Below, piece after piece: positions 30,183 through 53,213 of a DNA stretch of 64,000 bases. Location: positions 1,324,777 to 1,388,776 of the forward strand of contig OY282458.1 of NCBI GenBank assembly GCA_958296245.1, written 5' to 3'. The stretch's first letter is position 1. Every line of letters begins with the position of its first letter. The position numbers and the translations under genes are program-made. Origin of the DNA: an uncultured Dehalococcoidia bacterium. Its GTDB lineage: Bacteria > Chloroflexota > Dehalococcoidia > Lucifugimonadales > G958296245. The notes beneath the pieces were generated by a model. The model saw only the letters and a program-made list of their open reading frames with translations, did not search any database and was not told the origin of the DNA.

Positions 30183-31844
30183 TTAGTGCGAGGGCGGCTT
30201 CGGCCCGCGCTTGCGCGGACGCTTTCCCCGCACCGCCATCCCGAGCGGAAACGCCAGGAGCAGCAGGTTTGCCAGTCCCGCTGAGGCCGGGGCATTGGGA
30301 GGGGCGATGCAGCCGTGGCCGGTCAGCGGTACCGGCGTCGCCACCGGACCGGTCGCTTCCACCTCCTCGACCATCGTGGTCAGCATGACCAACGTCGCCT
30401 CGGACTCCGATGTCCCGTCGCTGGCCCGGTAGCTGAAGGATTCGGCTCCGGACTCGGGGTCGGGGCTGTACGTGAAGGAGCCGTCTTCGTTTAGGGACAG
30501 CTTCCCGTTGCCGACATCGGCGGCCAGCAGGGCCGTGAGCGGGGCCCCGCTCCGGCTCGTATCGTTGGCGAGCACCCCGGAAGTCGGGTCTATCGTGAGG
30601 ACGAGCCCAGGCTCGATGACGTAGCCGTCGACCTCCGAGACGGGCGCCCGGCTTGGGGGGGCGTTGATCTCGACGGACCCGAGGTCGCTCGCGCCGCCTT
30701 CGGGCCGCCGGGCGCCCCTCTGGTCGGCGCCGGGGGCCGCCGCGTCGTCGCCCGCGTCCACCGCCGGACTTCCGGCCATTGGTGCGTGGGTCAGACTGGC
30801 GCCGCCGTTGTCCTCCAGGGGGCCGAGCATCGGGTCTACCCCGGAGATGTCCCCTGGGTCCGAAAAGCCGCAGGAGCCGTCGCTATCCAGGTTATGGCCG
30901 AGCGAATTGATGCGCCCGGCGCAATCGTTGCCGGAGCCGCTATTGGCTACGATGGTATTGGTGAGGTCGGCCTTGAAGAGGAGGTCGTTGAAGATGCCCC
31001 CACCCTCGGCGGCGCTATTCCCGGCGAACGTGCTGTTTACCACCGTTGCAGTGCCGGCGTTGTTGAGGCCGCCGCCGTCCAGCTCCGCGCTATTGCCGCT
31101 GACCGTGCTGTTGATCATGGACAGGACGCCTGCGAGCTGTATGCCGCCTCCGGTAGCCTTTGCCGTGTTGCCGCTGATGGTACTGTTAATCACGGTCGTC
31201 GCCCGCCCAGCGTAGAGACCGCCGCCGTAGAGGGCCGAATTCTCGCTGATGGTGCTGCCGGTTATCTCCAGCGTGCCGAGTACCGCGGCGACCGCCCCCC
31301 CTCGGTTGAAGGTCGTGTTGCCGGTGAGGGCCACGTCGGAGAGTGTGAGGGTCGCCCCTCCCAGGATGTTGATCCCGCCTCCGTCGCCCTGGTCGCCGGA
31401 AGTCCTCGAGCCCACGGCTACCGCTCCCTTGCCGTAACGTATCGTCATGCCGGTGATGGCTACGTTGCCGGGGGTGTTCACCAGGAAGACCCGGTACTCC
31501 GCCGCTCCGGGTTCCGCCGCCGCCTGCACGATGGTCCTCCGTTGCCCCGCGCCGGTGATGATCAACGACTTGTCGATGTCGAGCTGCGCCCCCAAGGTGT
31601 ACGTGCCTGCGGGGACTGTTACGATGCTCCCCGGGGCGGCAGTGCTCACAGCCTCCCGTAGGGAGCAATCGGCGTCGCATTGCCCGTCGTCGGTGTCCGC
31701 CGTCTTCGTGACTGTCAGGGAGGGCGCCGGCTGCGCCGCCGCATGGCCGATGCCGACCACCGCGGCGGCCAGTAGGGTAGCAACCAAGAGGAAAAGGGGC
31801 CGACGGAGCCTATGATGGCTTACCAAGCTGCTCCTCGATCCCAT
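30183..31844 (-). CDS. CSLREA-domain beta-helix surface protein
   Basis: About 553 residues from ATG 31844 (an upstream ATG at 31940 would add 32 residues). A signal peptide (about 12-38, ending HAAAQP) is followed by the CSLREA motif and a right-handed beta-helix of repeats built on the pattern NSTxSGNxA with GGGxxx turns, then a 'choice-of-anchor'-type segment. Next comes a cadherin-like/VCBS-type domain (GVLANDTSRSG, SYRASDGTSE), a hydrophobic segment near the C-terminus and a basic tail. The tail suggests a cell-surface protein held by a sorting anchor. Its neighbours suggest polysaccharide binding, but this is not shown. Confidence 0.8.
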   Translation of the reverse strand: MGSRSSLVSHHRLRRPLFLLVATLLAAAVVGIGHAAAQPAPSLTVTKTADTDDGQCDADCSLREAVSTAAPGSIVTVPAGTYTLGAQLDIDKSLIITGAGQRRTIVQAAAEPGAAEYRVFLVNTPGNVAITGMTIRYGKGAVAVGSRTSGDQGDGGGINILGGATLTLSDVALTGNTTFNRGGAVAAVLGTLEITGSTISENSALYGGGLYAGRATTVINSTISGNTAKATGGGIQLAGVLSMINSTVSGNSAELDGGGLNNAGTATVVNSTFAGNSAAEGGGIFNDLLFKADLTNTIVANSGSGNDCAGRINSLGHNLDSDGSCGFSDPGDISGVDPMLGPLEDNGGASLTHAPMAGSPAVDAGDDAAAPGADQRGARRPEGGASDLGSVEINAPPSRAPVSEVDGYVIEPGLVLTIDPTSGVLANDTSRSGAPLTALLAADVGNGKLSLNEDGSFTYSPDPESGAESFSYRASDGTSESEATLVMLTTMVEEVEATGPVATPVPLTGHGCIAPPNAPASAGLANLLLLAFPLGMAVRGKRPRKRGPKPPSH

Positions 31845-32027
31845 GAGAGACTGCATTCTATAGAAGCCGGAGGTGAGGGCGCAAGGGCAGGTTGGAATAG
31901 GCCGGAAGAGGAGGTGACAGCCGCGAACGGCAATGGACAACGATGATCATCCCCGCAAGGTATCCAGCCTGATAGAATGCGCAGGCTGTCCCTTTTTCAT
32001 AATCGCGGCAGCCCTGCGGAGGTGATA

Positions 32028-33803
32028 ATGGGCGAGACTCACAGCGACAACTTGGCGGACAGGGGGCTGTCGTCGGACCCCGTGTACATTGCCGACCTGG
32101 GGATGTGCCAGCCCTCCGGCGCCATCTCCCGCAAGTCGGAGCGTCACCGGTGGCGGGCGTACGATTACGAGGTTGCCGGTTTTGCCGGCGTCATGCTCAT
32201 GGCCGGCCCGGAGACCGAGGCGCCCGAGATCACCTACCCGCTGGACGTCGACGGGTGGCACGCGGTGTCCATAGGGTTCTACTCCACCACGCACAACCTC
32301 AGCGGGGTCAACGATTTCCTGGTCAGGCTCTCGGGCGACGACACCTTTTCGGTACTCGACCCCGTCAGGGCTGATGCCTTCGAGCAGCAGCAACAACTTG
32401 AGGAGATCTACTGGAAGACGGCGAACCTCACCGGCCAGCAGATCGTGTTTGGTCAACTGTCGCGCAGAAGAGGGCTGGGCGGCGGGCCCGGGGTCGTGGA
32501 GTGCGGCCCGGTCCGCATCGCGTACGTCAAGCTCGTCCCGCTGACCGGCCCCGAGGTGGAGGAGCACACCCGGGACAGAGGCGACGGGAAGAACAAGAAA
32601 CTCTACGCCCACAACGACTCGTTCAGCTTCCAGAACGAGTACCGGCCCACCACCGCCGAGGCGATCAGGCGGCAGATCGAGCCGTACCGGGACACCGACT
32701 TCTCGCGCATGTACTGGGAGATCGGGAACGGGGACACGCTCTTCTACCCGTCCAAGATCGGCCGCAACTGGGATACTATCGACCTCCCGGAGGACTACGG
32801 ACGGATGCGCGACCGGCTCCGTGACGAGGCGTGGCGCATCCTGCGGCAGGACGGCGTCGACCCCTTCCGGGTCGCCGTGGACCACGCGCACGACGTCGGC
32901 CTCGAGATACACGGCTCCTACCGGCTCGCGGCGTGGACATATCCGCCGCCCGCGCTGAGCTATGCGTTCGAAGGCGGGATGTGGGATAAGCGGCCGGACC
33001 TGCGCTGCGTCGATCGGGATGGGCGGTATCTCCCGCGCCTTTCCTATGCTTTCCGCGAGGTGCAGGACTTCGCACTGTCCGTACTGCGGGAGGCGGCCAG
33101 CTACCCGCTGGACGGCTTGGCGCTTCTCTACAACCGCCGGCCGCCGTACATCATGTACGAACAGCCGCTGATCGACCGCTTCCAAGAGGAGCACGGCGAG
33201 GACCCGCGCCGGCTGCCCGAAGACGACCCCGCCTGGCTTGCGTATCGGGCCGGCGTCGTGACGGACTTCATGCGGCGCGTCCGGGCCGAGTTGAATACCA
33301 TCGCGGACGAGCAGGGGCGCGGGCCGATCCACGTCACGGCCTGCGTGTTGGGCAAGGCGGAAGACAACATGTACTTCGGCTTGGACACGGAGACCTGGGC
33401 CGGAGATGGTCTGATCGACACGCTCATACCGTACAGCCCGGCCCCGTTGGCAATGCCGATAGCCAGCGACATATGGTCGGACCCCGAACAGGTCGAGCCC
33501 TTCGTGTCGATGGTGCGGGGGACCAACTGCGGGCTGGCTCTGAACGTCATGCCCAGGGACCTCGGCCCCGAGGAGTACCGCCGGATGGCCTCGATGCTCT
33601 ACGGGGTGGGGGCGGAGGCCCTGTTCTTTTGGGACACCAACGCGCGCTGCACCTACCGGCCTCCTTGGGCGGCTCTTAGGAGACTGGGGCACAGGGACGA
33701 GATAGAGGGCTGGCTGCAGGCGGGCGAGCCCGACTTGGGCGCCGTGGTGCAGCCTCTACGGTCGCTGGCCGGCTGGAACATGGAGGCGATAGCTCCGGGT
33801 TGA
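32028..33803 (+). CDS. TIM-barrel glycoside-hydrolase-like protein, long form
   Basis: 591 residues from ATG 32028, preceded by a near-perfect ribosome site GGAGGTGAT; an ATG at 31977 is in frame but lacks one. The first 200 residues are a beta-rich domain (DVDGWHAVSIGFYST), perhaps sugar-binding. The rest is a barrel with DPFRVAVDHAHDVGLEIHGS, LREAASYPLDGLALLYNRR and EALFFWDTN, related in pattern to the two paralogues at 25777 and 27038. No signal peptide is visible. It is transcribed divergently from the surface protein, the two sharing about 180 bp between preferred starts. Confidence 0.7.
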   Translation: MGETHSDNLADRGLSSDPVYIADLGMCQPSGAISRKSERHRWRAYDYEVAGFAGVMLMAGPETEAPEITYPLDVDGWHAVSIGFYSTTHNLSGVNDFLVRLSGDDTFSVLDPVRADAFEQQQQLEEIYWKTANLTGQQIVFGQLSRRRGLGGGPGVVECGPVRIAYVKLVPLTGPEVEEHTRDRGDGKNKKLYAHNDSFSFQNEYRPTTAEAIRRQIEPYRDTDFSRMYWEIGNGDTLFYPSKIGRNWDTIDLPEDYGRMRDRLRDEAWRILRQDGVDPFRVAVDHAHDVGLEIHGSYRLAAWTYPPPALSYAFEGGMWDKRPDLRCVDRDGRYLPRLSYAFREVQDFALSVLREAASYPLDGLALLYNRRPPYIMYEQPLIDRFQEEHGEDPRRLPEDDPAWLAYRAGVVTDFMRRVRAELNTIADEQGRGPIHVTACVLGKAEDNMYFGLDTETWAGDGLIDTLIPYSPAPLAMPIASDIWSDPEQVEPFVSMVRGTNCGLALNVMPRDLGPEEYRRMASMLYGVGAEALFFWDTNARCTYRPPWAALRRLGHRDEIEGWLQAGEPDLGAVVQPLRSLAGWNMEAIAPG

Positions 33804-51704: not shown

Positions 51705-52030
51705 CGGTTACCTCCTTGTGAACGGGCTGCCATTCTAGGAGTTGGCCCGTTGCAAGTCAACGCGGGCGGGTGGAGAGGTGAACTTTTCAGGCCGCGTGAG
51801 TTGGAATCGTGAGACCCTCCCTCAAAGGGACTGTGAGACCTTCCCCCAAATTGTCATTCCGAACGGAGCTCTAGTAGAGTGAGGAATCTGAGGACCTGCC
51901 TGCCCCGCCGATTCATGGATGAGCCTGATCCGAGCGAGCACCAACGCGCCTGGCCCGCATCTAACGAACAAATAACGTGCCGCGCCCAGCCCCTGACGTG
52001 CAGCTACCCGAATATGGAGGATAGAGAGCC
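51705..52030. other. Intergenic region with repeat remnants, no gene seen
   Basis: 326 bp without a supported gene. It holds AACGGGC...GCCCGTT (a 7-bp inverted repeat at about 51718-51754) and a fragment GTCATTCCGAACGG...GAGGAATCTGAGGACC (about 51858-51897) that resembles the interspersed sequence at about 42020-42060. It ends with GGAGG just before the DUF3179 gene. Confidence 0.5.
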
Positions 52031-53213
52031 GTGACCAGCCGCCGGCTTGCCTGGGTCGGTGTCGCCGCAGCCATCCTGGCGGGGGGCGCTGGTGCTGATC
52101 GTCTCCGCGTTGACGGGCGGAGGACCCGGTCCGGGGGGCGGACAGCCTGACGGGGCAATCTCCGGTGAGGAGACGTCATCCGAAACGGTTTCTACGGGGC
52201 CGTCACGTGTCCAGACGCCTGAGCCGACCCCGGTCGCGGCCATCCCCTCGCGGGACGAGGCTTTCCTCGAGGAGGAGGACGAGGTCGTACTCACCGACGC
52301 CCTGGGCGGACCTGCGATAGACCCGACGGTGGCAGAGCTGTTCCCGGACCTGGCCCGGGTGCTGGGCAAGGACGACATACTCCCGATCTACAACCCCATC
52401 CTGGTCACTGCGCGGGAGTCCGGCTTGGAGGACGGCGACCACGTGATGGGGCTGGCGATAGGCGGTGAGGCCAGGGCCTACCCGGTCAGGGAGCTCTTCT
52501 CGCGGGAGATGGTCAACGACGAGGTGGCCGGCGTCCCGGTGCTCGTCACGTGGTGACCGATCTGCAACACCGGTCTCGTGCATGACCGGCGGATCGAAGG
52601 CAAAGCCCACGTATTCGGCAACTTCGGAAAGCTGTATCTGAACGCCATGACCTGGTGGGACCACGAGACCGGCAGCGTCTGGTCGCAGCCCTTAGGCAGG
52701 GCCCTCAAGGGCCCTTACAAGGGCACGCAGCTAGAGATGATTCCAGTGGCCGTCATGCCTTGGGCGTCCTGGAGAGAAGAGCATCCCGACACCCTCGTGC
52801 TGAAGGTGGACACCCGATTCAACGTGGCCTACGACCCGTTCGAGTACGACCTGGACATCTACGTCATCGGCGTCTCCCTGGGTGAGGACGCCAAGGCGTA
52901 CCCGTGGCTGAAGGTCAGCGCAGAGGGTGCGGTGAACGACCGCTTGGGCGGCGTGCCGCTGCTGATCTACGCCAACCCTGAATCGAGGGCCGCGCACGTC
53001 TACGTCAGGCTCGCCGGGGATAGGGAGCTCGAGTTCGCCTGGCGCGGCGGCGCGCTCATTGACGTGGAGACCGGGTCGACCTGGGACCCCGGAAGCGGGC
53101 GGGCAGTCGAGGGAGAGCTTCGCGGCGAGGTATTGAAGCAGGTGCCCTACGCAACGGCCTTCGATTGGGCATGGGCGGACTTCTACCCGGAAACGGCGGT
53201 CTACGGCAGGTAG
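52031..53213 (+). CDS. DUF3179 protein, candidate selenoprotein with UGA at the conserved Cys
   Basis: Two open segments (52047-52556 and 52557-53213) lie in one frame and are separated only by TGA 52554-52556. Around it the protein reads VPVLVTW-UGA-PICNTGLVHDR, where DUF3179 proteins carry CPxC. The homology continues unbroken (GNFGKLYLNAMTWWD, SVWSQPLGRAL, HPDTLVL). A hairpin follows the UGA. The best start, GTG 52031 after GGAGG, is in another frame: an extra G in the G6 run at 52081-52086 must be removed to join it to the gene, giving a good membrane anchor. TTG 52047 is in frame already. UGA may be selenocysteine or a nonsense mutation; two anomalies raise the chance of error. Confidence 0.7.
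52554..52556 (+). other. In-frame UGA, candidate selenocysteine codon
   Basis: TGA stands at the first Cys of the family's CPxC motif; the second Cys (in PICN) is retained, which would give a redox-type UxxC. Both flanks stay in the same frame and homologous. Selenocysteine needs selA, selB, selC and selD, none of which is in the window. Confidence 0.6.
52558..52596 (+). promoter_or_regulatory. SECIS-like hairpin downstream of the UGA
   Basis: The perfect 6-bp stem CCGGTC (52570-52575) with GACCGG (52584-52589) closes an 8-nt loop TCGTGCAT. An outer 5-bp stem (CGATC 52558-52562 with GATCG 52592-52596) extends it. The apical loop begins 19 nt after the UGA, inside the range of bacterial SECIS elements. 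The usual G in the first two loop positions is absent (G is third), so the match is incomplete. Confidence 0.45.

Follow-up and report, generated by a model that had tools for sequence, protein, structure and literature searches.

The 64,000-nucleotide stretch analysed here (the window) carries on its plus strand a DUF3179 gene with a single in-frame UGA (TGA 52554-52556). In the UGA frame, the gene runs from TTG 52047, the sole in-frame start candidate found, to the stop codon TAG 53211-53213 (52047-53213). In a profile search, the readthrough protein matched PF11376 (DUF3179) with an E-value of 9e-68 and a score of 229 bits, against a curated cut-off of 27. The main stretch of this match (profile positions 1-158) crosses the UGA and a second covers positions 187-292, the gap between them being a shorter linker between two internal repeats and no second lesion. 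The UGA, very probably read as selenocysteine (Sec, U), takes the first position of a UPIC motif and aligns with the first residue of CPLC in homologues. A sequence-only reading of this DNA had proposed that the segments on either side of the TGA share one frame and form one DUF3179 domain, and that the UGA replaces the first Cys of a CPxC motif; the profile match and the alignment bear out both proposals.

Openness on both sides of a TGA is worth little alone, because the GC-rich window contains 82 pairs of open segments split by a TGA with at least 60 amino acids on each side (74 such pairs for TAG); the argument must therefore rest on the position of the UGA. In five other TGA-split ORF pairs scanned in the window, no Pfam domain extended across a TGA. 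At 30186-33755 on the minus strand, a TGA separates two ORFs of about 600 codons that lie in one frame; they have Ig/cadherin-like matches, weak pectate-lyase-like ones and no domain crossing the TGA, and are probably two genes.

The source genome (2,685,284 bases in one contig) contains four DUF3179 genes, each with exactly one TGA at the same column, giving the motifs UPIC, UPLC, UPLC and UTLC. Across 174 homologous loci, the codon at this column is TGA in 123, TGC in 37, TGT in 12 and another one in the remaining two, and TAA or TAG occurs in none. Part of the 174 loci were chosen for having TGA, which biases the proportion of TGA in the order sample, but TGA again accounts for most of the 80 loci not selected in this way (L120-L199, from a scan of public genomes). 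Random nonsense mutations would be spread over three stops and many columns and, as the earlier reading had argued, would seldom fall on exactly this residue. With one column shared by all four paralogues and 123/174 homologues, and without TAA or TAG, the position of the UGA goes beyond chance. The only two invariant Cys columns in the DUF3179 alignment are those of the UxxC motif.

A few loci depart from this pattern. One of the two remaining codons is CGT, and L191 thus has Arg where others have Sec or Cys; the other locus, L183, is a mis-hit whose actual motif is CPLI. Elsewhere in the gene, L099 and L119 include one Cys form with a TGA after TGSK and one copy with a TAA just 5′ of the conserved part, and these may be decayed copies or errors.

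All four Sec genes that the earlier reading had suggested searching for are present in the genome. These are selA (525.6 bits), selB (above cut-off), selD (373 bits; G000:C1:4795-5715, minus strand) and selC, the tRNA-Sec (anticodon TCA, 65.9 bits against a gathering threshold of 47), which lies at C1:1390067-1390160 on the minus strand, about 1.3 kb past the right end of the window. The selD gene carries a UGA of its own, in ASCAGUASKF, and its product is a Sec-containing selenophosphate synthetase. In the sampled genomes of the order, selA is above cut-off in 170/197 and DUF3179 is present in 131/197. Genome-wide reassignment of UGA, for example to Trp or Gly, drew no support (TGA-split pairs are common in the window, but TAG pairs are likewise) and has almost no chance of being correct, because TGA still terminates five ordinary ORFs in the window (CtaA, FAA hydrolase, permease, amidohydrolase and TPP enzyme) as well as 45 DUF3179 ORFs that themselves carry the UGA, a UGA-reading tRNA-Sec is encoded, and homologues have Cys, not Trp or Gly, at the column.

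A SECIS-like hairpin, CCGGTC-TCGTGCAT-GACCGG (52570-52589, plus strand), begins 13 nt 3′ of the UGA. Its minimum free energy, –12.2, corresponds to z = –2.4 relative to synonymous recodings (–6.6 ± 2.3). Bacterial SECIS elements are described as a stem-loop that lies just 3′ of the UGA and whose small apical loop contains a guanosine (PMC1088965), and the window gene has a stem-loop at this position, a small apical loop and the guanosine; an Rfam scan gave no match to a SECIS family. The 6-bp stem is common to 9/10 members of the clade to which the window gene belongs (all but L124), and in the window gene it is one base off the register of other Sec genes. Within this clade the stem is near-invariant, making covariation uninformative there.

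The 92 Sec genes outside the clade have a stem of 7 bp (positions +16 to +22 with +28 to +34, counting the T of UGA as 0). Its cells were paired in 91% of cases, vs. 72% when the 3′ arms were dealt among the sequences (maximum 76% in 1000 deals), a test that is inflated by sequence relatedness. The 49 Cys genes showed 41% pairing, equal to their shuffles, and because relatedness inflates the shuffle tests, this contrast is the stronger evidence for the hairpin. Two-sided exchanges are frequent in the Sec stems (G-C/C-G at 19-31, G-C/T-A at 17-33, and C-G/A-T/T-A at 20-30), and 101/102 Sec genes have a guanosine at position 24, in the loop. The synonymous-recoding z is –1.74 for the Sec genes, –1.91 for the window clade and –0.15 for the Cys genes. 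Residues around the loop are TG..A or SA..G in Sec genes and mostly SA..D in Cys genes, and the protein sequence of the Sec genes thus follows the RNA hairpin.

The 5′ end of the gene is less regular. The earlier reading had started the gene at GTG 52031, which is not in the frame of the UGA, and its coordinates of 52031-53213 combine two frames. This GTG is preceded by a Shine-Dalgarno-like GGAGGA (52016-52021), its reading frame begins MTSRRLAWVGVAAAILAGG, a signal-like start, and it reaches the DUF3179 domain only through a shift across a run of six G (52081-52086). The segment at 52031-52086 (plus strand) is the likely true 5′ end and would encode a signal or anchor segment in the other frame. 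Unless translation begins at TTG 52047, we infer that the join at the G run is either a real frameshift or a homopolymer error of the assembly, and in the window copy the 5′ end may be damaged or misassembled. The locus is accordingly not flawless, which gives some room to the view that the gene is decayed or misread, with the UGA an ordinary nonsense mutation or a miscalled TGC or TGT. Set against this are the identical UGA in four paralogues and in 123/174 loci from separately assembled genomes, never replaced by TAA or TAG, the conservation of the DUF3179 domain on both sides of the UGA, and the conservation of the hairpin downstream of it, which together leave decay or error highly improbable.

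The UGA at 52554-52556 is thus, in our assessment with little doubt, read as Sec, making the DUF3179 product a predicted selenoprotein, because the UGA column is conserved, the Sec machinery is complete and the downstream hairpin covaries. SelA and SelD would produce Sec-tRNA(UCA), which SelB would deliver to UGA 52554, with the hairpin 13 nt downstream serving as the bacterial SECIS. The resulting full-length DUF3179 protein would contain a UPIC (UxxC) motif. Bacteria often insert Sec inefficiently, and the UGA might instead act as a regulatory stop, giving mostly a truncated product and readthrough only when selenium is ample. We consider this unlikely, since truncation would split the first repeat in mid-sheet and leave no complete domain, and the Cys versions produce only the full-length form.

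The DUF3179 domain itself consists of two halves that share 32% identity (pairwise BLASTP, 5e-18; hhalign, 99.9%), and on the basis of sequence and model it is best described as a tandem internal duplication. Repeat 1 (52359-52811, plus strand) carries the UxxC motif and has a Rieske-like beta fold in the model, and repeat 2 (52812-53210, plus strand) is without UxxC. An AlphaFold2 model built with 48 homologues reached a pLDDT of 90 and a pTM of 0.87 for the full domain; a model of repeat 1 alone reached a pLDDT of 96.8. In VIA-align, nearly all of the best 50 rows were Rieske-domain proteins, at middling scores (Z up to 8.8 for the full model and 8.4 for repeat 1), although Foldseek comparisons of the full model and repeat 1 with Rieske-domain proteins gave E-values of only 0.04 and 0.14, above 0.001. 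A resemblance of both repeats to the Rieske fold is suggested by these models. DUF3179 differs from the Rieske [2Fe-2S] ferredoxins in its ligands, as no conserved Cys/His set fitting C-x-H ... C-x-x-H was found in the alignment. No sequence relation to Rieske proteins was found in Pfam or the PDB, sequence searches of the PDB with DUF3179 gave no meaningful match, and no NCBIfam model for DUF3179 was found. A placement of UPxC in Rieske cluster loop 1 was considered and dropped: collinear ranges put residue 66, by position only, near the turn between two strands and not in the CxH loop.

The protein is most likely exported, judging by an N-terminal signal or anchor segment and by the lipoboxes of many relatives. 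Of the 122 Sec genes whose N-termini were covered by a crude scan, 46 had a lipobox and 61 a different hydrophobic segment. The N-terminal hydrophobic segment of the window gene itself straddles the apparent frameshift.

From the presence of the UxxC motif we infer that the DUF3179 protein probably works as a thiol/selenol oxidoreductase, in which the Sec and the Cys three residues apart in repeat 1 would form a reversible selenenylsulfide. Sec may also be inserted into a UxxC that is a metal-binding or structural site in a protein that is no redox enzyme, a reading that draws on the resemblance to Rieske domains, carriers of a metal cluster. It is weakened by the lack of conserved Rieske-type ligands and by the exchange of Sec and Cys at a single column, a pattern that redox sites typically show. 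A redox role is also what PMC9312934 gives as the presumed one for most prokaryotic selenoprotein families. We give the metal or structural site a minor share of the probability and favor the oxidoreductase.

A quick tree of 152 domains implies at least three changes between Sec and Cys (parsimony 7). The same quick tree groups the window gene with nine others in a clade (SH-aLRT 99) whose 10 members are all Sec and come from records of Dehalococcoidia and Anaerolineales. In the gene neighbourhoods, only one relative (L121) had an ORF resembling the adjacent FAA hydrolase (36%), and hence there is no stable partner gene.

The earlier reading had stated that some public entries of this family are named as possible selenoproteins. 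An earlier listing of the family does exist: the selenoprotein lists in PMC9312934 and PMC13188914 include DUF3179 (PF11376) as a UxxC/T family, and PMC9312934, through its reference 63, credits the DUF3179 selenoprotein to a study of the deltaproteobacterial symbiont of Olavius algarvensis. The window gene is like the listed proteins in its Pfam family, its UxxC motif, the UGA at the first motif position and the existence of Cys homologues. It differs in coming from Chloroflexota (Dehalococcoidia), in being one of four copies in one genome, and in belonging to a separate all-Sec clade. The term "Chloroflexi" is absent from the searched text of both papers, and "Chloroflexota" from that of PMC13188914 (2026). 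The Cys forms (for example in Haloferax, Nitrosopumilus and Chloroflexota records) share the domain and the column, with CPLC, and differ in having TGC or TGT in place of TGA and in lacking a conserved hairpin 3′ of the codon. Because DUF3179 is already on published lists, the window gene represents no new kind of selenoprotein; it is a new and well-supported member of a listed family, to which a structural hint is added.

More tentatively, and with less than even chances in our estimate, the protein may be a cluster-less, duplicated relative of the Rieske fold that gained a selenol/thiol redox site in a hairpin turn of repeat 1 and became a major exported seleno-oxidoreductase of Dehalococcoidia, with several copies per genome and one Sec-only clade. 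Gene calling with UGA as a stop would split or truncate the DUF3179 genes of a widespread marine-type lineage. The Sec and Cys forms of DUF3179 offer a clean natural comparison inside one family, in which the SECIS hairpin visibly constrains the protein, as seen in the exchange of G..A with A..G on the arms of the stem. The duplication and the Rieske-like fold suggested by the models would provide a first structural frame for this domain of unknown function.
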